Assembly: GCA_014382245.1 (NCBI GenBank)
Contig: JACNKC010000068.1
Coordinates: 7,506 to 71,505 of the forward strand
DNA: 64,000 nt
Reading direction: 5' to 3'
From: Pseudomonadota bacterium
GTDB taxonomy: Bacteria; Desulfobacterota; Binatia; UBA1149
Shown: positions 11,689-64,000 of the stretch, in pieces
Position numbering within the stretch: position 1 is the stretch's first letter
Layout: each line of letters begins with the position of its first letter
Made by a program: the position numbers and the translations under genes
The notes under the pieces: generated by a model
The model's database searches: none
What the model was told of the DNA's origin: nothing
The model's input: the letters and a program-made list of their open reading frames with translations, nothing else

Positions 11689-13992
11689 ATGGCCTGGTTC
11701 AAATTCGTAACTCGATATCCCTGGCTGGTACTGGCCGTGGCGCTGGTGGTTTCGGCCGGCAGCCTGGCTGCCGTCGCCGACCTGCGGGTCAACAATGACC
11801 CCGAGACCTGGCTGACGGCCAACAGTGCTGCCTTGGCCGCCTACCAGGAATACAAGCAGGACTTCGACAACGACGAGTACCTGGTGGTGGGCTACGCGCA
11901 CCCTGAGGGTGTGCTGTCCGAGTCGGCACTGGACATGGCCGAGCGCCTGACCGAAGCCTTCGAGCAGCTCGACGGAGTGTTGCGCGTCACCAGCCTGGCC
12001 AACGTCGAAGACATACGCTCGGACGGCGACCTGCTCAGCGTGGGCCCCCTGGTCGTGCGCCCCCTGGACGACCAGCAGCAAGAAAAACTGCTCAAACGGC
12101 TGGCCACCGACCCCCTGTTTGCCCGCTCGCTGGCGAGCGCCGACGGGCAAGTGGGGGCAATGACGCTCAAGATAAAGCCCATGCCCGAGGGCGACTACCA
12201 ACCACGGGTGATTCTCACCCGCCGCATGAAAGAGCTCACCGACCAGGAAGACGGCGAATTTCACCTCACCGGCGCCGTCCAGTTTGACCTGGCCATGTAC
12301 GAAGCCATGGAGCGCGACGACCAGGTACTGCTGCCCGTAATGTTGGTCATCTTCTCGGTGCTGCTGGGCTCACTGTTCCGCACCTGGTCGGGTGTGCTGT
12401 TGCCCACGCTCACCGTGGGGGTGTCGGTGCTGTGGACCTTCGCTACGCTGGCGCTCACCGGCTTCACCCTCAACGTGATGACCGCCGGCCTGGCGATCGT
12501 ACTGCTGGGCATAGGCGTGGCCGATTCCGTCCACTATCTCACCGAGTACCAGGAAGAACTACTGGCGGGCAGCAAGCGCGAAGACGCGATCGTGGGCGCC
12601 GGCATGGCGGTGTTTACGCCCTGCCTTTTCACCAGCGTGACAACGGCCCTCGGTTTTCTCGGGCTGCTGGTCATCGAGGTGCAGCCCATAATGGAGTTCG
12701 GGTTGTTCGCCGCCGTGGGCTCGCTCTACGCCTTCGTGGCCACCATCACCATAGTGCCCGCGGCCATACGACTGCTGCCCGAGCCACGGCGACTGGTAGC
12801 GGCCTCGCAGCAGGGTCACTCGCGTTACCTGCGCGCGTTGTTCGGATTGGTATCGCGGCAGCGCGCGCCCCTGCTGGCAGTGAGCGTCTTGTTTCTCGTG
12901 GCCGGGCTGGGCGGACTTCCCCGGGTGGAAACCGAGGCCAACTGGTACGAGTACCTGGCGCCGGAAAACCCCACGCGCATTGCCACCGACTTCGTCGAAG
13001 ACAACATAGGCGGCGTTTACACGCTCGAACTGCTGGTGAGCCCCGGGCCCGAACTGGCCGACACCCCGGAGCCGATGAAGGAGCCTGGCGTCCTGCGCGC
13101 CATGAACGAGGCCTGGCGCGGCCTGCTGGCCGACCCCGGGGTGGAAAGCGCCCTTTCTCCCGTCCAGTTCGTAGAGGTCATGAACCGAACCATGCACGAG
13201 GGCGACCAGGAGTGGCTGCGCCTGCCCGAGCGACGAGACCAGGTTTCCCAGTTGCTGCTCATGTACGAAATGGACGCCCCCGACGGCGACATGTACCAGT
13301 ACATGAACTTCGACTTCACGCGCGCGCGTGTGACCGGACGCGCCAGGATATCGGAAGCGTCCAACGACCAGGCGCTGGTGGCACGCGTGCGAGCGCTGGC
13401 CGACTCCATCGATGGCGCGCGCGTGGAGCCCACCGGCATCGTCATGCTGTTCAGCGACATCGAACACCACATGATACGCGGCATGGTGCTCGGGTTCTCG
13501 GTGGCGCTGATGGCCGTGAGCGTGATGATGGTACTGGTGCTTCGCAGCCTGCGCCTGGGACTGCTGGCCATGATACCCGCCATCCTGCCGTTGAGCTTCG
13601 TGCTGGGCATGACCGGATGGGCCTCCCGACCGCTGGGCCCGATGGCGGTGATGATGGCCAACGTCGCCTTGGGCGTCGCGGTGGACAACGCCATACACTT
13701 GCTCACCCGCTACCGGCGCCTGCGCGCCTCGGGTAAGGAAGTAGCGACGGCCATAGAAGAGAGCGTTACCGTGGTGGGCCGGCCGGTTCTCTACACGGCC
13801 ATCGTACTGTGCATGTCCTTCGTGGTACTGGGGTTCTCGGACATGGTGCCCACGCGGGCCTTCGGGCTGCTGACGGCAATGGTGCTGGCAGGCTCCCTGG
13901 GTGGCGCACTCGTCACACTGCCCGCCACAGTGCTCATGGCCGACGAGCACCTGGGCAGTGGAGGGGCTGAGGCCCGCGGCGGCGAGGCCTGA
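11689..13992 (+). CDS. RND-superfamily exporter (MMPL/HAE3 type)
   Basis: A 767-residue inner-membrane protein starting at MAWFKFVTRYPWL (ATG 11689; a GTG at 11665 adds eight unlikely residues). It has the duplicated RND layout: one membrane helix, a large periplasmic loop, five helices, then the same again. The proton-relay segments are GIGVADSVHYLTEY in the first half and GVAVDNAIHLLTRYR in the second, each with a buried Asp. The periplasmic loop starts with the NNDPETWL motif common in lipid-exporting HAE3/MMPL proteins such as hopanoid transporters. It is transcribed divergently from efp and followed by enoyl-CoA hydratase genes; no adaptor or outer-membrane partner is adjacent. Substrate is unknown, most likely a lipid. 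Confidence 0.88.
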   Translation: MAWFKFVTRYPWLVLAVALVVSAGSLAAVADLRVNNDPETWLTANSAALAAYQEYKQDFDNDEYLVVGYAHPEGVLSESALDMAERLTEAFEQLDGVLRVTSLANVEDIRSDGDLLSVGPLVVRPLDDQQQEKLLKRLATDPLFARSLASADGQVGAMTLKIKPMPEGDYQPRVILTRRMKELTDQEDGEFHLTGAVQFDLAMYEAMERDDQVLLPVMLVIFSVLLGSLFRTWSGVLLPTLTVGVSVLWTFATLALTGFTLNVMTAGLAIVLLGIGVADSVHYLTEYQEELLAGSKREDAIVGAGMAVFTPCLFTSVTTALGFLGLLVIEVQPIMEFGLFAAVGSLYAFVATITIVPAAIRLLPEPRRLVAASQQGHSRYLRALFGLVSRQRAPLLAVSVLFLVAGLGGLPRVETEANWYEYLAPENPTRIATDFVEDNIGGVYTLELLVSPGPELADTPEPMKEPGVLRAMNEAWRGLLADPGVESALSPVQFVEVMNRTMHEGDQEWLRLPERRDQVSQLLLMYEMDAPDGDMYQYMNFDFTRARVTGRARISEASNDQALVARVRALADSIDGARVEPTGIVMLFSDIEHHMIRGMVLGFSVALMAVSVMMVLVLRSLRLGLLAMIPAILPLSFVLGMTGWASRPLGPMAVMMANVALGVAVDNAIHLLTRYRRLRASGKEVATAIEESVTVVGRPVLYTAIVLCMSFVVLGFSDMVPTRAFGLLTAMVLAGSLGGALVTLPATVLMADEHLGSGGAEARGGEA

Positions 13993-53543: not shown

Positions 53544-55175
53544 ATGCACGGTGGCAAACTGGTAGCGAAGGCCCTTAAACAGGCGGGGGTCGAAGTGGTC
53601 TTCACTCTTTCCGGTGGACACGTGATGGCGATCTACGATGGTTGCCTCGACGAGGGAATAAAAGTCGTCGACGTGAGACACGAGCAGGCCGCCGTACACG
53701 CGGCCGACGCCTGGGCGCGGCTGAATCCCGGCAAGGTGGGCGTCGCCATACTCACCGCCGGCCCCGGTGCCACCGACGGCGTGACCGGGCTGGCCAACGC
53801 CTGGCGGGCCAACTCACCCATACTCGTTTTCGGGGGGCAGGGACCGCTGGCCAACCTGCGCAAGGGCTCGCTGCAGGAAATGGATCACATCTCGGTCATG
53901 CGACCTATAAGCAAGTGGGCCGAGGCCTGCTACGCCACCGACCGCCTGGGTGAATACGTGGAAGAAGCCATACGCCACGCGTTGTCGGGCAACCCGGGGC
54001 CGGCTTACATTGAAATCCCCATGGACGTACTGGGCGGACCGGTGGACCTCGACACGGCCTACTGCCCCGCCCCGCTGCCCACGCCGCAGGTCAGGCCGGC
54101 CCGCGAGTCGGTGCGCGAGGCCGTAACGATGCTGGCGGCTTCAAAGCAGCCCATGATAATGGTCGGCACTGGCGTCAAGTGGTCCAACGGCCGCGAGTCG
54201 CTGGGCCGCTTTCTCGATGCCGTTAAGATGCCTGCCTTCTGCAACGGCATGGGTCGCGGGCAGGTCGACCACGACTCGCCGTGGTTCTTCAACCGCACTC
54301 GTCGCGACTACCTCGAGCAAACCGACTGCGTGGTCCTGGCGGGTTCGCTGCTGGACTTCCGCATGCGCTTCGGTGCCTCGATCCCGGCGACGACAAAAAT
54401 CATACAACTCGATCTCGACGCCGTGCAGATCGGCCAGAACCGCAGGGCCGACATAGGCCTTGTGGGCAACCTTGGGCTTACCCTGCAGACCATGCTCGAG
54501 GTCATGCAGGAAGACGATGTCAGCATGGACTGGTCAGGCGTCGTGGAGACCTGGCGAGCGAAAGAGGACGAGGCCGAAGAAACCATGCGCACACGGCTCA
54601 ACTCCGACGAGGTACCGATCGACCCGCAACGCTTGTGCCGCGAGATAGCCGACTTCGTGGACGACGACACCATAGTGATCGGCGACGGCGGCGACATAGT
54701 GGCCCAGGCGGCCAAGGTCATAAAAGTGCCCAAGAACGGAGCGTGGATGGACCCGGGCCCGCTGGGTACGCTGGGCGTGGGCATGCCGTTTGCGCTGGCC
54801 GCGCAGCTGGCCCACCCCGACAAGCGCGTACTCATCGTCTACGGCGATGGAAGTTTCGGGCTGAACGGTTTCGAGTTCGATACAGCGGTGCGATTTGGCC
54901 TCCCCATCGTTGGCATCATAGGCAACGACCAGGCCTGGGGGCAGATGCTCAGGCCCCAGGCCGGCCTGTTCGGCGAGGACCGGCTGGTGGCCACCGAGCT
55001 GGCGGCCACCCGTTACGACAAGGTCGTCGAGGCCCTGGGCGGCCACGGCGAGCTGGTGACCGAAGCTGACCAGATCCGACCCGCCCTTGAGCGGGCCTAT
55101 GCCAGCGGTAAGCCAGCTTGCGTGAATGTCATGATGCGACAGGACCGCGAGTTCTCTGGCGGCATCTACGTCTGA
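53544..55175 (+). CDS. Thiamine-diphosphate enzyme, HACL2/ILVBL-like 2-hydroxyacyl-CoA lyase
   Basis: A 543-residue ThDP enzyme. The N-terminal PYR domain has VFTLSGGHVMAIYDGC and VDVRHEQAAVHAADAWARL (catalytic Glu), a middle domain follows (PMIMVGTGVKWSNG), and the PP domain has LIVYGDGSFGLNGFEFDTAVRFGLPIVGIIGNDQAWGQ with the ThDP/Mg site. The combination GNDQAWGQ, TRYDKVVEALGGHGELV and FSGGIYV at the end matches human ILVBL/HACL2 better than acetolactate synthase, so cleavage of 2-hydroxyacyl-CoA (alpha-oxidation) is likely. GGAGG 10-14 bases upstream supports ATG 53544. It is divergent from the P450, which could supply a hydroxylated substrate. Confidence 0.87.
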   Translation: MHGGKLVAKALKQAGVEVVFTLSGGHVMAIYDGCLDEGIKVVDVRHEQAAVHAADAWARLNPGKVGVAILTAGPGATDGVTGLANAWRANSPILVFGGQGPLANLRKGSLQEMDHISVMRPISKWAEACYATDRLGEYVEEAIRHALSGNPGPAYIEIPMDVLGGPVDLDTAYCPAPLPTPQVRPARESVREAVTMLAASKQPMIMVGTGVKWSNGRESLGRFLDAVKMPAFCNGMGRGQVDHDSPWFFNRTRRDYLEQTDCVVLAGSLLDFRMRFGASIPATTKIIQLDLDAVQIGQNRRADIGLVGNLGLTLQTMLEVMQEDDVSMDWSGVVETWRAKEDEAEETMRTRLNSDEVPIDPQRLCREIADFVDDDTIVIGDGGDIVAQAAKVIKVPKNGAWMDPGPLGTLGVGMPFALAAQLAHPDKRVLIVYGDGSFGLNGFEFDTAVRFGLPIVGIIGNDQAWGQMLRPQAGLFGEDRLVATELAATRYDKVVEALGGHGELVTEADQIRPALERAYASGKPACVNVMMRQDREFSGGIYV

Positions 55176-55189
55176 CCGGCTGGCGGGGC

Positions 55190-57676
55190 TCAGGCCGCGT
55201 GGCCGCGTTCGGCCTCGACCAGGGATTCGGTCGCGACCGAATCCTCAGGGTATCCTGCCGCCTCGCGCCTCTTTTCGCGGTGCCAGTGCATGGCCAGCGC
55301 GGCCGGCAGTACGGTCAGCGCACCCAGGCAGGACAACGCCATGTTGGCCGCTATCAAGCGACCGAACTCCGCGTTGCTCGGCGACGATGAGAACGCCAGC
55401 ACCATGAAGCCCATGACGACCACCGCTCCGTTGAAGACAATCGCGCGCCCGGTGCTGTGCATGGCTTCGATGGTGGCCGCCCTCACGTCGGCCGCGCGCG
55501 CCACCAGGGCTCGGAAGCGCGACATGAGATGAATCGAGTAGTCTATGCCTATGCCCAGGGCGATAGCCGTTATCATGGCCTTCTCCGGACCCAGTGGCAC
55601 CCCGGCCGCGCCCATGACGCCAAAATTAACCACGGCAGTAAAGGTCGACGGCATCATGCAGATGATCGCGTCGGCCACCGAGCGAAAGAGCACGGCCATG
55701 GCCAGGAAAATGAGCACCCCGGCGACGCTCACCGACCAGACCTGGCTGTAGAATACGTTGTCCATGACGATCTTGAGCATGCTGGCCGAGCCCGTCACGT
55801 TGGCCTGCTCCACCAGCGGACGCACGTGCTCGTCGAGCAGCGCCTCGGCCTCGCGGTGTACGTCGTGGATCACCGCCAGGCTGTCGGTGCGAAGCAGCAC
55901 CGTGGCGTTGGCGCGCCGGTAGTTGTAGTCCACCATCTCGTCGAATTCGTCGGGGCTGGCCGACATGGTGTAGAGCAACAGGTACTGCGCTATCAGTTCA
56001 CGGGTATCGGGCACGCGCAGCTCGCCGGGCCGGTCCTCGTTCATGGCCTGGTTCATGCGCTTGACGTACTCAACCAGTGAACGGGTGTCGCCCACGTACT
56101 CCTTCTCGGCGAGCCGGGTAAGCACGGTGTCGATGGCGAGCATGACCTCGGGCTCCTTCACCCCACCGTCTACGCCGCTGTCTACGAGCAGGTGCAGCGG
56201 CACGGTGCCCCCGTGGCGCTTGCGCAGTATGCGCTCGGCCTCCAGCACCGGGGTGCCCTCCTTGAGACTCTCCACCCACGAATAGTCGATACGCAGCGTT
56301 GAAGCGCCGGCGACCCCGAGCAGCACCACGACCACAAAACCCCGGACGACCCCCAGGCGATGTGTCTCGAGCCAGCCACCCAGCCGGCCCAGCGTGCGAG
56401 GCAGCAAAACCTCGTTGGAACGTGACACCGAGGTAGAGGGCAGGCGCAGCCAGCTGAGCAAGGCGGGCAACAGGGTCAGCGAGCAGGCCATGGCGACCAG
56501 TACGCCCAGGGCCACCGAAAATCCGAACACCCGGTAAACGGTCATGTTGCCGGCGATCAAGCCACCGAAACCGGCTGCCGTTGTGACCGAGGTGAGCACC
56601 ACCGGCCGCCACATCTCTTTCATGGTGCGTACTACAATGGATTTGTTCTCACCCCCGTCACTGGAGTGATGCACGTAGCGGTCGAGTATGTGTATGCCGT
56701 CGGCACAGCCTATGGCCATGAGCAAGGGTGGCACCATGGTGCCGGCGATATATATGGGCAGGTCAAACATGGCTTGCACGCCAAAAGCCCAGGTCACCGA
56801 TACGGCTACCACGAGCAGGGGTAGCAGCACGCCGCGCACGGTCAGCATGGCGAGCGCAACGCCGATAAGAAGCAGCGGCAGCGGATCAAACTGGCCCTGT
56901 TGCACCCACTGCCAGGTACCCACCAGCACACAGCCCATGGTTATCCTCAGGGCGAGGCGCGGCATCGAGATAGTTCGGAAGCAGAAGAACAACACCACGA
57001 GCACCGCCAGCAACGCAAGCGGAACGAGTCTTGCCAGGTCCTGCGACATCTGCCGGCCGTAAGTGTGCTCGATGACTACCGTACCCGCCGGTAGCAGGCG
57101 GGCACCGGGGATACGGGTGTCGGCAAGAATCTCTTCGACCTGCTCCCAGACCTCCAGTGGATCGGTACCGTGGCCGTGGAAAGACTTGACCAGTATCATC
57201 GCCACCGCGCCATCGCGCGAAACCAGCCGGTCGAGAAGGACGGGGTTGCGAAACACGCGCTCGCGCAGACGGTCGACCTCGGCCTGGGTCGAAGGTGCTT
57301 GCTCGAACAGGGGTTCGACCTCCAGCCCCGCCTCTGTTCCCTCGATCACGTCGACCGTAGAGATGCTCGTGACCGCGCCCTCCTCTACCGAGGGCAGCGC
57401 CTGCAGCCTGTCGGTGAGACGCGCTATCGCGCCGATTATGCCCGGGGTAAAAACCCCTCGCTCTCCGTCGGCTTCCAGCGCGACCAGGATGTTGCGGCCC
57501 AGCCCGAAGTCATCCTCGGCCTGTTGCCAGAAAGTACGCACCGGGTGATCATCGGGCACGTAGGCCTCGGTGTCGGGCTCAAGGCGCAGACCGGGTAGCT
57601 GCAAGGCCAGGAACAGTGTTGCCCCGGCCCATGCCAGGACAATGACTAAGCGATAGCGGATTACCTTCTCAAACAT
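55190..57676 (-). CDS. RND-superfamily exporter (MMPL type)
   Basis: An 828-residue inner-membrane transporter with the duplicated RND layout, two periplasmic loops and about 12 helices. Proton-relay segments: LLMAIGCADGIHILDRYVHH in the first half and ALGIGIDYSIHLMSRFRALVAR in the second. It begins with FEKVIRYRLVIVLAWAGATL and has the EPDTEAYVPDDHP motif after helix 1. It ends in a short charged tail. AAGGAAAA precedes ATG 57676. The gene is divergent from the TetR-headed gene group at 57.8-64 kb, whose products include two similar exporters, so it is probably part of the same regulon. Confidence 0.92.
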   Translation of the reverse strand: MFEKVIRYRLVIVLAWAGATLFLALQLPGLRLEPDTEAYVPDDHPVRTFWQQAEDDFGLGRNILVALEADGERGVFTPGIIGAIARLTDRLQALPSVEEGAVTSISTVDVIEGTEAGLEVEPLFEQAPSTQAEVDRLRERVFRNPVLLDRLVSRDGAVAMILVKSFHGHGTDPLEVWEQVEEILADTRIPGARLLPAGTVVIEHTYGRQMSQDLARLVPLALLAVLVVLFFCFRTISMPRLALRITMGCVLVGTWQWVQQGQFDPLPLLLIGVALAMLTVRGVLLPLLVVAVSVTWAFGVQAMFDLPIYIAGTMVPPLLMAIGCADGIHILDRYVHHSSDGGENKSIVVRTMKEMWRPVVLTSVTTAAGFGGLIAGNMTVYRVFGFSVALGVLVAMACSLTLLPALLSWLRLPSTSVSRSNEVLLPRTLGRLGGWLETHRLGVVRGFVVVVLLGVAGASTLRIDYSWVESLKEGTPVLEAERILRKRHGGTVPLHLLVDSGVDGGVKEPEVMLAIDTVLTRLAEKEYVGDTRSLVEYVKRMNQAMNEDRPGELRVPDTRELIAQYLLLYTMSASPDEFDEMVDYNYRRANATVLLRTDSLAVIHDVHREAEALLDEHVRPLVEQANVTGSASMLKIVMDNVFYSQVWSVSVAGVLIFLAMAVLFRSVADAIICMMPSTFTAVVNFGVMGAAGVPLGPEKAMITAIALGIGIDYSIHLMSRFRALVARAADVRAATIEAMHSTGRAIVFNGAVVVMGFMVLAFSSSPSNAEFGRLIAANMALSCLGALTVLPAALAMHWHREKRREAAGYPEDSVATESLVEAERGHAA

Positions 57677-57753: not shown

Positions 57754-57771
57754 TTGACAGGGCATTGTCAA
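57754..57771 (+). promoter_or_regulatory. Palindromic operator in the shared TetR/MMPL control region
   Basis: TTGACA (57754-57759) and TGTCAA (57766-57771) form a perfect 6-bp inverted repeat with a 6-base spacer. The first arm is also a consensus -35 box for rightward transcription. The site lies between the divergent MMPL gene and the TetR gene, so a TetR dimer could bind here and control both sides. Confidence 0.5.
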
Positions 57772-57794
57772 AGGGATTGAATCGATATTCACAA

Positions 57795-58484
57795 ATGAAG
57801 AGTCATTCAGCAAGCGTAGCGACGGCCGTCAGCCGTGTGCAGAAACGACGGGATGACGCCCGTCAGAGGGTGCTGGAGTCGGCCACTTCCCTGTTTGCAG
57901 AGAACGGTTTCGCCGAAACATCCATAGCCTCGATAGCCCGTGAGGCCGACGTATCGGTAGGCGGCTTCTACAACCTGTTCGACAGCAAGGAAGCCCTGTA
58001 CCGCGAAATGGTGATCAACCGCACGCAGGAATTCTACGAGAGCCTCAGGCAGGCACGCAACTCCGGCGGCAACCCGGTCGAGCGCCTGCAAAAGGTGATG
58101 GTCGAAAAACTCGTCCTCTTCCAACAGGAAGCCGACGCCATCCACGTGCACTTGAGCGTCAACCCGGGCGCACGCATGTCGTTGATCTCGAGTTTTCCCG
58201 AACAGGCTCGGCTTACTTTCGAACGGGGCATGTCCGAAACCGCGGCCGTCATCAACGAAGGGATACGCGACGGCCTGTTCGCGCCCCAGGACGCGCTTCG
58301 CGCTGCGGCGGCCATAGATGCGGTGAGCACCGCCCTCTACCTCGCCCACCTCGAGGATCCCGCTGCCAACAACGCCGCCCGGGTATTGGCCGACGTCCAG
58401 CGCTACACGGGGGCCATGCTCAGGTCCGAAACTTCGCCGGGGGAATCACCAGGCCACAGCAGAAACAGGGAGACAGCAGGATGA
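57795..58484 (+). CDS. TetR-family transcriptional regulator
   Basis: A 229-residue regulator counted from ATG 57795; a TTG at 57765 would lie inside the presumed operator. The helix-turn-helix is SIASIAREADVSVGGFYNLFDSKEALYREM, preceded by RVLESATSLFAENGFAETS, the standard TetR N-terminus. The C-terminal ligand domain is helical (EKLVLFQQEADAIHVHL, RGMSETAAVINEGIRDGLF) and fits lipid or drug ligands. It overlaps the LolA-like gene by 4 bases and therefore heads that operon; it probably represses itself and the divergent exporter. Confidence 0.92.
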   Translation: MKSHSASVATAVSRVQKRRDDARQRVLESATSLFAENGFAETSIASIAREADVSVGGFYNLFDSKEALYREMVINRTQEFYESLRQARNSGGNPVERLQKVMVEKLVLFQQEADAIHVHLSVNPGARMSLISSFPEQARLTFERGMSETAAVINEGIRDGLFAPQDALRAAAAIDAVSTALYLAHLEDPAANNAARVLADVQRYTGAMLRSETSPGESPGHSRNRETAG

Positions 58485-59302
58485 GAACGACACGGATGTC
58501 AACGAGAACGTTGGGAGTACTTGCAATATCGGCGATAGCGGCCTCCTTTTTTGCCGCGATACCCGCCCACGCGGCCGAAATGACGGCCAAAGAAACAGCC
58601 AAGGCTTCAGACGATGCCAGGCGTTCAAAAACCGAGCACCAGGTCATGACGATGACGCTCACCAACAAGCGCGGCCAGTCTCGCGTGCGCACTATCGAGG
58701 GCTGGTCAAAGGAGCTGAGTGACGTCGAGGAGCACCGTTTTTCGCGATTCCTCAAGCCCTCGGACGTGCGCAACACCACCCTGCTGAGCTACGACTACAA
58801 CGACGAACGCGACGATGACACCTGGCTGTACCTGCCCGCCCTCAAAAAAATAAAGCGCATCCTGTCGTCAAACAAGAAAGACTATTTCATGGGCTCGGAC
58901 TTCACCTACGAGGACATGGAAAACATCGACATCGTAAACTGGAACTACAGCTTCGCGGAGCCGGAGACCTTTGCCGGCGAGCCCTGCTGGGTAGTGGAGG
59001 CGGTGCCCGCCAATGAAAAGGAAGCCGGTGAGACCAGTTACTCAAAGACTGTCAGTTGGATAGCCAAGAGCGACATGCTCAGCCGCAAGGGCGAGTACTG
59101 GGACAAAAAGGGGCGCTTGGCCAAGCGCCTGCTGATAGAAGACATTCACCCCACCTCTGACAGTGACCCCCGCCCGCGCGGACACCGCATGATCATGAGC
59201 AACCTGATCACCGGGCACAACACCATACTCGAAATGAACACGCTGGAGCTCGACGTCGAGGTCAAGCCGGGGCTGTTCAGCCAGAGGAGTCTCAGGCAGT
59301 GA
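58481..59302 (+). CDS. LolA-like periplasmic carrier (outer-membrane lipoprotein-sorting protein family)
   Basis: A 273-residue secreted protein with a signal peptide (residues ~1-32, ending AHAAE). The body is a half-barrel of the LolA/LolB-like family: HQVMTMTLTNKRGQSRVRTIEGW, DDTWLYLPALKKIKRILSSNKKDYFMGSDFTYEDM, and KTVSWIAKSDMLSRKGEYWDKKGRL (quoted in parts). The DFTYED motif marks the subfamily linked to RND exporters. Such proteins bind a hydrophobic molecule in the periplasm. It is co-translated with the TetR regulator (4-base overlap) and with the AMIN-barrel gene downstream (4-base overlap), so it is likely to hand a lipid from the MMPL pump to the outer membrane. Confidence 0.85.
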   Translation: MRTTRMSTRTLGVLAISAIAASFFAAIPAHAAEMTAKETAKASDDARRSKTEHQVMTMTLTNKRGQSRVRTIEGWSKELSDVEEHRFSRFLKPSDVRNTTLLSYDYNDERDDDTWLYLPALKKIKRILSSNKKDYFMGSDFTYEDMENIDIVNWNYSFAEPETFAGEPCWVVEAVPANEKEAGETSYSKTVSWIAKSDMLSRKGEYWDKKGRLAKRLLIEDIHPTSDSDPRPRGHRMIMSNLITGHNTILEMNTLELDVEVKPGLFSQRSLRQ

Positions 59303-61233
59303 AACGGCGACCCACAGTTGCCGGTCTATTGGCCCGGGCCGCGTTGCTGGTGGCGTCCTGTACACTGGCCCTGCCGCTGACCGCGACAACCGCCGGCGCC
59401 TCCCCGGTGGTAACCGGTGTAAAATCGTCTACCAGTGCGACTCGAACCCGGGTGGTATTAGACCTTAACGGCCCGGTTTCCTTTAAATGGGGGCAACTGC
59501 GCGCCGACCCCTCGCTGGGCCGACCCTCGAGGGTCTGGGTAGACCTGTACGGGATAACAAACGGCGGTGGCATCGAGACTGCCTTGGTATCCAACGACAC
59601 CCGCGTGCTCAGGATGAGGGCTTCGCAGAATCGACCCGACAAGGCTCGAATTGTTTTTGATCTCAGGGCCCCCGTGCGCCCGACTATTTTTACCCTGCCT
59701 CCCGACGGCGACAGGCCCGACCGATTGGTGGTAGACCTGCTCGACGGCGCGGTGGTGATACGGGAAAAAGCTGTCCCCTCGCCGCCCCCCACGGAAACAA
59801 CCATCGTCGAGGACCCCGCTACCGCCCGGCAGGTGCGACAGCGTGCGGCGGTCATTGCAGACATGGAGGCCGTGCTCGAGCAGGCCTCCACGAGCGCGAC
59901 ACCCGGCGCTTTCGGCAAACAGCTGCCCACAGCCAGCAGCATCGAGGCCGCCCCCTCCCGGGCCACCCCGGCGCCAACACCCGCGACAAAAAAGAAAATT
60001 TCCCCCATCGACCTGGACTTCAGCACCCTCGGCTACTTGCAGGACTCGGTGGCCCCCAGCCTCGATGACCCCGACGAGCTCTTGTTCCACCGGCAAACGC
60101 TGCACATGGAACTCGAAGGTTACACCGGCGGCGGCCACATGCTGCGGCTGGCGGCTGACGTCTACCGTGACGACGCCTCCTTCCAGGACGACTCGACGGT
60201 AAAATCGCGCCTGCGCGAGGCTTACCTCAGGCTGCGCTTTGACAAGGTAGACCTTCGCCTGGGTCGCCAGCAGATCGCCTGGGGAGAAGCCGACGGTGCG
60301 ATAGTGTCGGACCAGGTTTCGCCCTTTGACCTGACCAACTTCATCGTCCCCGAGTTCGACGAGATAAGGCTGGGCGTGGATGGAGTGACCCTGGACTACT
60401 ACTTCGATGATGGCAGCGACCTGCAGCTGCTGTGGCTCGGGCGTTTCACCAGCCCTGACTTCCCCGACCTTGCCTCGCCCTGGTCCTTCGTGGACCCCGG
60501 CGCGCTGGGAGGGCTGACGCTGTTACCGGCCGAGAAGCCGGCCGCGAGCTTCGCGAACTCTGAGTTCGGCCTGCGCTACAGCCGTCACCCACTGGCGGCC
60601 GACTGGTCGATCGGCTACCTCAGGAGCTGGGACGACCGCCCTTCGCTGGCAATCGACCCTCTATCGGGCACTGCTACCCCGCGCCACGAACAGTTTGACC
60701 TGCTGACCTTCAACGTGGTGCACCCGAGAGGAAATCTCCTCTACCGGCTGGACGCGGCCTTCGAAAATAACAGGATGTTATCGGTCTCACCGCTGGCAGC
60801 ACCCGAAACAGCCTCCCTGGGTTTCCGCACCCGCCAGGACGTGGCCCGCGTGCTGTTGGCGCTCGACACCAAGCCTGACTTCGAGTGGTGGGAACAGGCC
60901 GATGCGAGCCTGCAGCTGGTGCATGAACAGGTCATCGACCCTCACTCCGCGCTGCTCGGCCCGCGAGAAACCGACCACGTGGGACTGCGCCTTTCGGGAG
61001 CCTGGATGGCCGAAACGATCAAGCCATGGCTGTTCACGATGGTCAATGTCAGGGGCAACGACGCCTGGCTGCAGGCCAAGGTTGATTACCAACCCTTGGA
61101 CAACTGGAAGTTCTCGGCCGAGTACGACGCGTTCTTCGGCCATGCCTACAACCCGATGGCACGCACTGGTGGAACCTTCGGCCGCTTTGATCGCAACGAC
61201 ATGCTGCTGTTCACCGTGCGGCGCAGTTTCTGA
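59299..61233 (+). CDS. AMIN domain fused to DUF1302-like outer-membrane beta-barrel
   Basis: A 644-residue envelope protein, GTG start at 59299 with a leader ending AGASP. Residues ~35-155 fit an AMIN domain (VVTGVKSS...RTRVVLDLNGPVSF, DLYGITNGGGIETA, RIVFDLRAPVRPTIF, DRLVVDLLDG), which binds peptidoglycan in other proteins. A Ser/Ala/Pro-rich linker follows (about 155-235). The rest (LDFSTLGYLQDSVAPSLDDPDELLFHRQTLHMELEG, LRLRFDKVDLRLGRQQIAWGEADGAIVSDQVSPFDLTNF) is a DUF1302-like 16-stranded barrel ending in the C-terminal Phe typical of outer-membrane proteins. It overlaps the LolA-like gene by 4 bases and precedes two MMPL genes: a natural outer-membrane exit for that system. Confidence 0.82.
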   Translation: MKRRPTVAGLLARAALLVASCTLALPLTATTAGASPVVTGVKSSTSATRTRVVLDLNGPVSFKWGQLRADPSLGRPSRVWVDLYGITNGGGIETALVSNDTRVLRMRASQNRPDKARIVFDLRAPVRPTIFTLPPDGDRPDRLVVDLLDGAVVIREKAVPSPPPTETTIVEDPATARQVRQRAAVIADMEAVLEQASTSATPGAFGKQLPTASSIEAAPSRATPAPTPATKKKISPIDLDFSTLGYLQDSVAPSLDDPDELLFHRQTLHMELEGYTGGGHMLRLAADVYRDDASFQDDSTVKSRLREAYLRLRFDKVDLRLGRQQIAWGEADGAIVSDQVSPFDLTNFIVPEFDEIRLGVDGVTLDYYFDDGSDLQLLWLGRFTSPDFPDLASPWSFVDPGALGGLTLLPAEKPAASFANSEFGLRYSRHPLAADWSIGYLRSWDDRPSLAIDPLSGTATPRHEQFDLLTFNVVHPRGNLLYRLDAAFENNRMLSVSPLAAPETASLGFRTRQDVARVLLALDTKPDFEWWEQADASLQLVHEQVIDPHSALLGPRETDHVGLRLSGAWMAETIKPWLFTMVNVRGNDAWLQAKVDYQPLDNWKFSAEYDAFFGHAYNPMARTGGTFGRFDRNDMLLFTVRRSF

Positions 61234-61263
61234 GAAACCGTTTTCCGGTAGAGGAAAAAACTA

Positions 61264-63615
61264 CTGTATCACCGCTTAACAAACCTCGTCGTCTCGCACC
61301 CCCTGCCAATCCTGCTGGCCACCTTGCTGCTGACCGGCTGGTTCGCCTGGCAGTTGCCATCGATCAGAACCGACAGCGACGCGCGTTCCTACCTGGGCAA
61401 GGACGACCCGGTCGGCCAAGCGCTTGACCGCATGGAAGATATCTTCGGCGAGCAGGACCTGTTCATGATCCTGGTCCTTCGCCGTGACCACCGCGACGGC
61501 ATCTACAATCCATCCACGCTGGCTCTCATCCGCGAAATCGGCGAGTGGCTCGAGCAGCAGGACGAGTTCGAAACCTCCTTGCCCTCGGACCTCAGGTCGC
61601 TGGCCACCGTAAACAACATCGTCGGCAGTGACAGCGGTTTGCTCGTGCTCCCCTTCATGGACGAGATCCCCGCCAACCGGGACCAGTCGCTGGCACTTCG
61701 CCGGGTGCTCGACGCCGACCCGGTTTACAGCGGGTCGTTGGTATCTGCCGATGGCAAGGGTGCCACCATAATGGTCAGGCGGTCGGCGGCAGGAAGCCTT
61801 AACCGACAGGGCGCCTCCAGGAAACTGGAAGCCTACGTCAACAAGTTGTCTTCCGACGGCCGCCCCGAGACCTTCCACCTCGCGGGGCGACCAATCATTG
61901 AAGGCATCTTCGATGAAAACATGCGCAGCGACACGCGCAACATGCTGCCCGCGGTGGTAGGCCTGGTCGGCATAATGCTGTGGCTGACATTTCGCAGCGT
62001 ACGCGGGGTGCTGCTGCCGTTTGCAGTCATACTGGGAACCGAGCTGTGGACCATGGGCGCGCTGGCGGCATTAGACCACCCCATCTACCCGATCACGACC
62101 ATCCTGCCGGTGATCCTGGTGCCCATAGCGGTGGCCGATTCCATCCATCTTCTCAGCCGCTACTACGATGCCCAGGTCGAGAACCCGTCGCTCGACCGAG
62201 AGGCCGTCGTCCGCCTGACCATGCAGGAAATGGCTTCCCCTGTACTGCTGACATCGATCACCACGGCGGTTGGCTTCAGCGCCATGTCGGTCTCGAGGCT
62301 GGTACCCGTTTTTGAGTTCGGCCTGGCAGCGGCCAGCGGAATAATGGTAGCGCTGTTGCTCACGCTGGTACTGATGCCTGCAGTGCTGATGCTGTTGCCA
62401 CTGCAGCCCGGCCGTGGCCGCTCGCGAAACAGCTTGCTCGACCGCAGGTCGTGGCTGGTGCGGCAGCTCACCGGGTCGGCCGTGCTCGTGAACCGCAACC
62501 CCTGGGTCACGCTTGCGCTGTTCGCCCTGTTGTCGAGCGTGGGCGTGTTCGGCATCCGACTGGTCACGGCCGACAGCTCCATGGTCAGCCAGTTTCCACC
62601 CGGCCACAGGGTAAGAGCCGCCAGCGATGTAGCCGACCTCTACTTTGCCGGTGGAACAACCACCGACATACTGATCGATAGCGGTAGCGAAGGGGGAATG
62701 AAGGACCCTGCCCTGCTCAAGGCCATGGCCTCGGTACAGGATGGGCTCGAGGAAATGGAGCTGGTGGGAGACAGCTTTTCGCTGGCCGACCTCGTGGCGC
62801 GAATGCACGCCGTCATGAACGGCCTGCCCAACGGTAGCCGGGAGATGCCGGCAGACAGCGAGCTCGTGGCCCAGTACCTTCTCTTGTACTCGATGTCGGG
62901 CAGCCCCGGAGACACCGAAGCCCGGGTAGCCTACGACTACCGCTACGCCCGCCTGCGAACCTTCCTGCGCGACCCGGGCACTACGGCGGCCCGGCAGGTG
63001 CTCGAGCGCAGCAACGAGCTGGTGTCGCTTCACTTTGCTGACCTGCCCGACGCCAGCGCCGTGGCGGCCGGTGGAGCACAGTTTACCACCACGCTGGAAG
63101 AAGCCATTATCTCGGGCCAGTTCATGACCGCATCTATCTGCCTGCCGGTGCTGGTCGCGATCGGTTTCCTCGTGTTCAGGAGCCTTGTGATGGCGCTGCT
63201 GCTGGTGGCACCGGTGGCCTTCGCCGTCCTGCTCACCTACGGCGCGCTCGGCATTGCCGGCATCCCCACCGACTTCGGCATTGCCGTGCTGAGCGGGATC
63301 ACACTGGGGATCGGCGTCGATTTCTCGGTGCACTACCTGCATCGCTACCGCGAGTTGCGAAACCGCGGCATGGAGCACGAAGGCGCCAGCGTTCTCACCG
63401 CCGCCACGGCCGGTCGCGCGCTGTTTTTCAACGCGGTGGTGCTGGTCGGAGGCTTCCTCGTCCTGCTGGGAGCTCGCTTCTACCCGCAGGTAAAACTCGG
63501 CTTGTTGGTGACGACGACCATGGTGATCTGCTACGTCTACACCCTTTATCTCTTCCCGGCAGCGCTGGGGCTTTTTGCGGCCGAGCGATCGCAAGCCGGG
63601 AAAGAAAGCGTATGA
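61264..63615 (+). CDS. RND-superfamily exporter (MMPL type), CTG start proposed
   Basis: A 783-residue transporter if started at CTG 61264. The first usual start codon, TTG 61324, would cut into the first membrane helix; alignment with the sibling gene downstream (MKRAWQRYVDAVIRRPLVALL and YIDSDAR vs LYHRLTNLVVSHPLPILL and RTDSDAR) places the true N-terminus near 61264. AGAGGA (61250-61255) lies eight bases before that CTG, and a stop at 61249 prevents a longer start. Proton-relay segments: VPIAVADSIHLLSRYYDA and TLGIGVDFSVHYLHRYREL. It has two periplasmic loops and about 12 helices. It follows the barrel gene by 30 bases and overlaps the next exporter by 4 bases. Confidence 0.85.
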   Translation: MYHRLTNLVVSHPLPILLATLLLTGWFAWQLPSIRTDSDARSYLGKDDPVGQALDRMEDIFGEQDLFMILVLRRDHRDGIYNPSTLALIREIGEWLEQQDEFETSLPSDLRSLATVNNIVGSDSGLLVLPFMDEIPANRDQSLALRRVLDADPVYSGSLVSADGKGATIMVRRSAAGSLNRQGASRKLEAYVNKLSSDGRPETFHLAGRPIIEGIFDENMRSDTRNMLPAVVGLVGIMLWLTFRSVRGVLLPFAVILGTELWTMGALAALDHPIYPITTILPVILVPIAVADSIHLLSRYYDAQVENPSLDREAVVRLTMQEMASPVLLTSITTAVGFSAMSVSRLVPVFEFGLAAASGIMVALLLTLVLMPAVLMLLPLQPGRGRSRNSLLDRRSWLVRQLTGSAVLVNRNPWVTLALFALLSSVGVFGIRLVTADSSMVSQFPPGHRVRAASDVADLYFAGGTTTDILIDSGSEGGMKDPALLKAMASVQDGLEEMELVGDSFSLADLVARMHAVMNGLPNGSREMPADSELVAQYLLLYSMSGSPGDTEARVAYDYRYARLRTFLRDPGTTAARQVLERSNELVSLHFADLPDASAVAAGGAQFTTTLEEAIISGQFMTASICLPVLVAIGFLVFRSLVMALLLVAPVAFAVLLTYGALGIAGIPTDFGIAVLSGITLGIGVDFSVHYLHRYRELRNRGMEHEGASVLTAATAGRALFFNAVVLVGGFLVLLGARFYPQVKLGLLVTTTMVICYVYTLYLFPAALGLFAAERSQAGKESV

Positions 63616-64000
63616 AACGAGCCTGGCAACGCTACGTCGACGCGGTTATCCGCAGACCGCTGGTGGCACTGCTTGTCGCGCTTGCCGCCACGGCCTTCAT
63701 GGCCGCCGGCCTGCCGCGCGTATACATCGACAGCGACGCGAGGCAGTTTCTCCCCGACGAGGACATAGCCCGCGACAACCTGGCTTACATCGAAGAAGTT
63801 TTCGGCGATGTCAGCCTGCACATGATAGCCGTGCTCAGGCCCGACCACCCCGACGGCGCCTTCAACCCCGAGACGCTGGCGCTTGTGAGCCAAATTACCA
63901 GCTGGCTGCAGGAACAGCCCGAATTTGAAACGGCCGTCAACTCGGACCTGAGATCGCTGTCCACTGTAAACGACGTGCGCGGTACCACCGAGGGCATGGA
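63612..64000 (+). CDS. RND-superfamily exporter (MMPL type), partial at right edge
   Basis: The first ~129 residues of a third exporter: one membrane helix (VIRRPLVALLVALAATAFMAA) and the start of the periplasmic loop (YIDSDARQFLPDEDIARDNL, FETAVNSDLRSLSTVNDV). The segment DSDAR and E-x-x-L-x-SDLRSL are shared with the gene immediately upstream, so the pair arose by duplication and the two probably work together or as alternative subunits. ATG 63612 overlaps the upstream stop by 4 bases (ATGA). The remainder lies outside the window. Confidence 0.88.
   Translation, partial: MKRAWQRYVDAVIRRPLVALLVALAATAFMAAGLPRVYIDSDARQFLPDEDIARDNLAYIEEVFGDVSLHMIAVLRPDHPDGAFNPETLALVSQITSWLQEQPEFETAVNSDLRSLSTVNDVRGTTEGM

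Follow-up and report, generated by a model that had tools for sequence, protein, structure and literature searches.

A TetR-headed LolA-like/DUF1302/MMPL operon of Candidatus Binatota and the probable repeated recruitment of AMIN domains by its barrel family

Introduction

What is the function of an operon that encodes, behind a TetR-family regulator, a LolA-like periplasmic carrier, an outer-membrane barrel fused to an AMIN domain and two MMPL pumps? We addressed this question for such an operon from lineage UBA1149 of Candidatus Binatota (genome of 2.94 Mb). The window is the whole 64,000-nucleotide stretch that was analysed, positions 7506-71505 of contig C14, and positions are given in its numbering unless another locus or contig is named. 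The original prediction was of a lipid exit route crossing the whole envelope, with the pore anchored to the cell wall by AMIN. The system proved to be real and well conserved; its kind is known, and its architecture shows a recurrent variation. On balance, and by a small step above even chances, we favour reading it as a TetR-controlled LolA-like/DUF1302/HAE3 envelope export route whose barrel is bound to the wall through an acquired AMIN domain.

Results and discussion

The third gene of the operon (59299-61233, + strand) encodes a 644-aa protein in which an AMIN domain (PF11741) and a DUF1302 domain (PF06980) lie in a single uninterrupted frame. The AMIN region spans residues 37-157 (59407-59769, + strand), with the Pfam match at residues 74-147 (2.2e-8; 34.5 bits against a cut-off of 20.5). 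It is followed by a linker of residues 158-239 (59770-60015, + strand), mostly of low predicted local distance difference test score (pLDDT), with a weak helix at 173-198 and the rest predicted to be disordered. The DUF1302 beta-barrel occupies residues 240-644 (60016-61230, + strand), and its PF06980 match (residues 295-644, 1.2e-16) exceeds the cut-off. An AlphaFold model built on a 34-sequence alignment gave about 18 strands with pLDDT mostly of 80-90, and Foldseek matched it to porins, OccAB3 and AlgE (E ~1e-9, probability 1.00), in agreement with the predicted outer-membrane barrel; the barrel profile had no PDB match by sequence. The fusion is fixed in the genus (3/3 genomes) and, since both congeneric genomes carry it at 93-95% identity, it is not an assembly error.

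We then asked how general the AMIN part is. In other families of the order, the five closest barrels, which are 51-57% identical, match from about residue 240 onwards in frames of 456-498 aa and none contains AMIN; going by domain-model labels, 41 of the 55 barrels in our tree lack it too. The original prediction had named a lack of AMIN in most neighbouring homologues as evidence against itself, and this is what was observed. The unusual fusion that had been proposed is real and recurs in three clades, but AMIN is not a standard part of the system. The second set of fusions was found in a family that we call Binatales-like (f7), the order name being read from record titles, where 7/7 genomes of one genus carry it, in the arrangement tetR-MMPL-lolA-AMIN.barrel where gene order was read. 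A sister genus offers a split and fusion pair: in G062 (L058, 892-3345) two AMINs and the barrel share one 818-aa frame, and in G054 (L044, 9658-12118) a separate AMIN gene lies between lolA and the barrel gene, with overlapping frames. The third set comes from families f59 and f72, the AMIN of the f72 member scoring slightly below the Pfam cut-off. Among Accumulibacter and related barrels whose N-terminal frames are long, none was found to carry an AMIN.

In a maximum-likelihood tree of the 55 barrels the AMIN label requires 4 changes, all forced by well-supported branches, compared with 12.6 for shuffled labels; three of them correspond to the three separated fusion clades and one to the split gene of G054. 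In a tree of 40 AMIN domains, a single clade of the fused ones was rejected (p-AU 1.5e-8). When the two longest-branched rows were removed, pairwise tests rejected the grouping of UBA1149 with Binatales (p 0.001-0.002) and, less strongly, of UBA1149 with the third group (p 0.02). The AMIN tree has ~110 columns and long branches, and within-genome gene conversion could mimic a local relationship. With the barrel clades separated and the fused AMINs scattered over more than one clade, these trees favour recruitment on several occasions, each time from a different donor. A single ancestral fusion lost many times is disfavoured by the AMIN tree, with the reservation that the domain is short and the third-lineage fusions are long-branched. 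The donors differ: the UBA1149 fusion AMIN is sister to the AMIN of the organism's own AmiC (support 90/94 with the same two rows removed), an AMIN-Amidase_3 protein, so the domain was most likely acquired from the AmiC-type amidase lineage, and the Binatales fused AMIN lies among AMIN-TPR proteins. In a partial literature collection we found no paper joining DUF1302 with AMIN, or DUF1302 with MMPL, nor any description of AMIN recruitment by such barrels; repeated recruitment is the new element here. It constitutes a natural experiment: the apparently separate gains of AMIN in distant relatives suggest an advantage in tying these pores to the wall, and predict a benefit from wall attachment or septal placement.

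The partner of the barrel is a LolA-like periplasmic carrier of 273 aa (58481-59302, + strand; PF17131, 7e-52) with a Sec signal peptide recognised by eye. In a survey of the neighbourhoods of 44 loci on genome contigs, some of them short, a LolA-like gene was present on 36 and an MMPL gene on 14, with none nearby in the other 30. The LolA-like/barrel pairing spans Binatota, related deltaproteobacterial groups, Rokubacteria, Pseudomonadota and Bacteroidota, and several of these lineages have an MMPL gene beside the pair, in keeping with the expectation that such neighbourhoods exist elsewhere. In the third fusion lineage an ABC (ATP-binding cassette) ATPase and a MacB/FtsX permease take the place of the MMPL, and the carrier and the AMIN-barrel remain. 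Given these counts and this replacement, the conserved core is the carrier plus the barrel and the motor is exchangeable: MMPL, MacB/FtsX-type ABC or none adjacent. The expected co-occurrence thus held for the LolA-like gene; MMPL is a frequent companion, not a constant one. DUF1302 and PF17131 proteins have no agreed function, and a core with an exchangeable motor provides a concrete model for them. As for the third lineage itself, loci L156 (5753-12321), L155 and L157 contain ABC ATPase, MacB/FtsX permease, LolA-like, AMIN-barrel, ThiF-family and nitroreductase genes. We also looked for the cargo in the operon neighbours of the Binatales and third-lineage fusions, where luciferase-like monooxygenases, ThiF and nitroreductase genes revealed no common theme.

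The fold of the carrier agrees with the LolA-like assignment and narrows it. Its AlphaFold model (pLDDT 80) best matched LolA3 of Porphyromonas gingivalis in the PDB (9tp6; E 7e-27, TM 0.81/0.92, 35% identity), followed by a DUF1329-family structure, while canonical LolA was far weaker (TM ~0.4). The protein scores 176 bits with PF17131, which fits far better than PF07044 (DUF1329), where 44 bits were reached along a section of the model. LolA3, the nearest solved structure to our carrier, shows only very weak binding to LolB, and a separate function has been proposed for it; the accessible part of that paper names neither its partners nor its cargo (PMC13103446). A locus of Bacteroidota (L122, Proteiniphilum) has the order tetR-MMPL-lolA-like-barrel, which is why the neighbourhoods suggest that an MMPL and a DUF1302 barrel may also be the partners of Porphyromonas LolA3. 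These data bear on the idea that the operon is a branch of Lol lipoprotein sorting, in which the carrier would move lipoproteins and the barrel would be their acceptor. The LolA fold and the MacB/FtsX-type ABC transporter that replaces MMPL in the third lineage speak for it, but we regard it as very improbable, given the very weak LolB binding and the separate function proposed for LolA3, the fact that lipoprotein release is not a known MMPL activity and the absence of LolB, and equally of LolCDE, among the operon genes.

The two pumps are paralogues with 48% identity, as predicted. MMPL1 (61264-63615, + strand; 783 aa; PF03176, 3e-36) is a probable pump of the HAE3 type of the resistance-nodulation-division (RND) superfamily, and MMPL2 (793 aa, + strand) leaves the window at 64000 and is complete on the contig (63612-65993 in window-equivalent positions). 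A transmembrane Asp is retained in each half of both proteins (VADSIH and GVDFSVH in MMPL1), at the position of the RND proton relay, a role that is established for this residue in the family. The best NCBIfam match of MMPL1 was TIGR00921 (HAE3) with 221 bits, under its cut-off of 352 bits, and the models of the hopanoid transporter HpnN were not reached (110 bits against 752 for TIGR03480; 70 against 1100 for NF052374). In the congeneric genome G001 (L035, 9891-10427, the same record as L089) MMPL1 has shrunk in frame to ~180 residues and MMPL2 is intact.

A close characterised counterpart is AmeABCD of Castellaniella defragrans, where a DUF1302 outer-membrane protein, a LolA-superfamily periplasmic protein and an HAE3 RND pump form one cassette, whose deletion lowers monoterpene tolerance (PMC6394551). 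It differs from our operon in that its AmeB is a DUF1329 protein and our carrier is of the PF17131 type, in having AmeC (COG4447), to which none of the five operon genes, all assigned, is similar, in an AmeA for which a signal peptide and DUF1302 are the sole parts described, and in having one pump instead of two. AmeB-like proteins in our survey (L125, L127 and L132) score 130-211 bits with DUF1329. This comparison raises the alternative of solvent or xenobiotic efflux, in which the same parts would expel small apolar compounds sensed by TetR, an activity that has been proposed for AmeABCD, and AMIN would merely stabilise a long assembly at the wall. Besides the AmeABCD phenotype, the position of tetR at the head of the operon, the relatives regulated by AphR/AphS/AphT next to aromatic degradation genes and a P450 gene that accompanies the operon across the genus all speak for efflux. 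However, the P450 gene is not conserved outside the genus, the carrier is LolA3-like rather than of the full DUF1329 type of AmeB, and no AmeC-like gene is present. LolA-fold carriers also have a cleft that suits acyl chains, and we consider efflux a serious though unlikely explanation.

A second counterpart is found in Pseudomonas putida, where PP_0765/PP_0766 together with PP_2018/PP_2019 provide a DUF1302 barrel, a LolA-superfamily carrier, an additional protein of the periplasm and a transporter, linked by one phenotype, a requirement for growth on Tween 20, and by predicted contacts (PMC10866462). Here the genes occupy two separate loci, the carrier is a DUF1329 protein and AMIN is not reported. 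With these two counterparts, the kind of system is a known one. The Tween 20 requirement leads to another alternative, uptake, in which fatty acids, esters or hydrocarbons would enter through the barrel and be moved inward by the carrier, to be metabolised by a 2-hydroxyacyl-CoA-lyase-like enzyme. Such an enzyme is encoded at 53544-55175 (+ strand): a thiamine diphosphate (ThDP) enzyme to which, among PDB entries, 2-hydroxyacyl-CoA lyases/synthases are the most closely related (5e-84). Its gene lies beside the LolA-barrel genes in 8/8 order genomes examined and is their most constant neighbour, even where MMPL is missing; an alkane-induced MMPL/LolA-like protein of Thalassolituus with an adjacent porin-like protein also favours uptake. 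Nevertheless, characterised RND/MMPL pumps move their cargo outward and the third fusion lineage pairs the core with a MacB/FtsX-type ABC transporter, and uptake appears to us rather improbable, more so than efflux.

In the export route that we favour, TetR would control the operon, the pumps would hand an apolar or lipidic cargo to the carrier, and the carrier would ferry it through the periplasm to the DUF1302 barrel, which would release it either into the outer membrane or across it. AMIN, on its flexible linker, would bind peptidoglycan under the outer membrane and fix the pore, probably enriching it at the septum or poles. In PilQ and AmiC it is the AMIN domain that binds peptidoglycan, at the septum or poles (PMC10653833). 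PilQ is likewise an outer-membrane pore with an N-terminal AMIN; it is a multimeric secretin unrelated to the single-chain DUF1302 barrel, so the comparison is one of working principle only. By this analogy, peptidoglycan binding is the most likely activity of AMIN here and may serve to place the pore at the septum or poles, and because the AMIN of PilQ puts its pore there, placement is at least as likely a role as the anchoring that was first proposed. A more specific version, which we advance tentatively and hold as less probable than its negation, is a dedicated wall-tethered lipid exit pore, with barrels having repeatedly captured AMIN, from AmiC in UBA1149, from AMIN-TPR proteins in Binatales and from a third source elsewhere, to site export at septal or polar peptidoglycan. 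If true, it would extend to lipid exporters, for which we did not find it described, a targeting principle known for secretins.

Several observations weigh against the export route or its lipid cargo. We infer lipid as the cargo from family functions; the P. putida relatives may be required on Tween 20 for uptake or for detoxification; 3/5 order-level loci that retain the pair have no MMPL next to it; the AMIN region of the AlphaFold model is strand-rich but of low confidence; and in the shortened MMPL1 of G001 the first helix is joined to the last part, through a genuine deletion or else an assembly error. As a side observation, the pair in Accumulibacter (L103, 7220-8104) adjoins a PF13444 acyltransferase with weak similarity to FeeM, an N-acyl amino acid synthase, which might point to an acyl-amino-acid cargo.

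Operon layout and neighbouring genes

The five genes, all on the + strand and each located where the original prediction had placed it, as domain matches and the completion of MMPL2 on the contig indicate, are ordered tetR, lolA-like, AMIN-DUF1302 fusion, MMPL1 and MMPL2. Three of the four junctions are 4-base overlaps (ATGA between TetR and LolA, GTGA between LolA and the barrel, ATGA between MMPL1 and MMPL2). The TetR-family regulator lies at 57795-58484 (+ strand; PF00440, 8.8e-14). Upstream of it, a sigma-70-like promoter (TTGACA-N17-TTGAAT; 57754-57782, + strand) is proposed from its consensus match only, and its boxes and spacing are identical in 3/3 genus genomes. Since the TTG codon at 57765 falls within this conserved promoter, the ATG at 57795, kept in the congeners, is the more likely TetR start. 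The palindrome TTGACA-N6-TGTCAA was considered as a TetR operator and discarded: it is perfect in this genome only, and the congeners break the second arm and retain the promoter boxes. We likewise rejected the idea that the barrel begins as a lipoprotein, at the VASC of its signal peptide, as a hydrophobic stretch follows it and the Binatales fusions have no matching cysteine. MMPL1 probably starts at CTG 61264, which is preceded by AGAGG, because after the in-frame TAG at 61249 no ATG, GTG or TTG preserves the whole first membrane helix; TTG 61324 would truncate it.

The divergent MMPL gene (55190-57676, - strand) does stand back to back with the operon here, as described, but it is a lineage-specific neighbour and not a conserved part of the system. 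It is only 29% identical to MMPL1 or MMPL2, is absent between the ThDP gene and tetR in both congeners (G001 and G002) and thus intervenes in this genome only; its relatives in the order, 45-55% identical, occupy unlinked loci. Downstream of MMPL2, on the opposite strand, lies a gene for a PNPOx-like protein. Within the order the fixed block reads ThDP enzyme, (tetR), lolA-like, barrel, (MMPL), PNPOx-like, regulator-like and a large gene, glutamate synthase-like by eye; its MMPL is present in L036, L040 and UBA1149, and L037, L038 and L039 lack it at precisely this position. Elsewhere in this genome (G000, C8, 24002-26894) an MMPL gene adjoins a LolA-like gene (PF17131) that runs on the other strand, with no DUF1302 gene found there. 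Finally, a further MMPL gene (793-aa frame) is located at 11707-13932 of the window and is 29-30% identical to the MMPLs described here.

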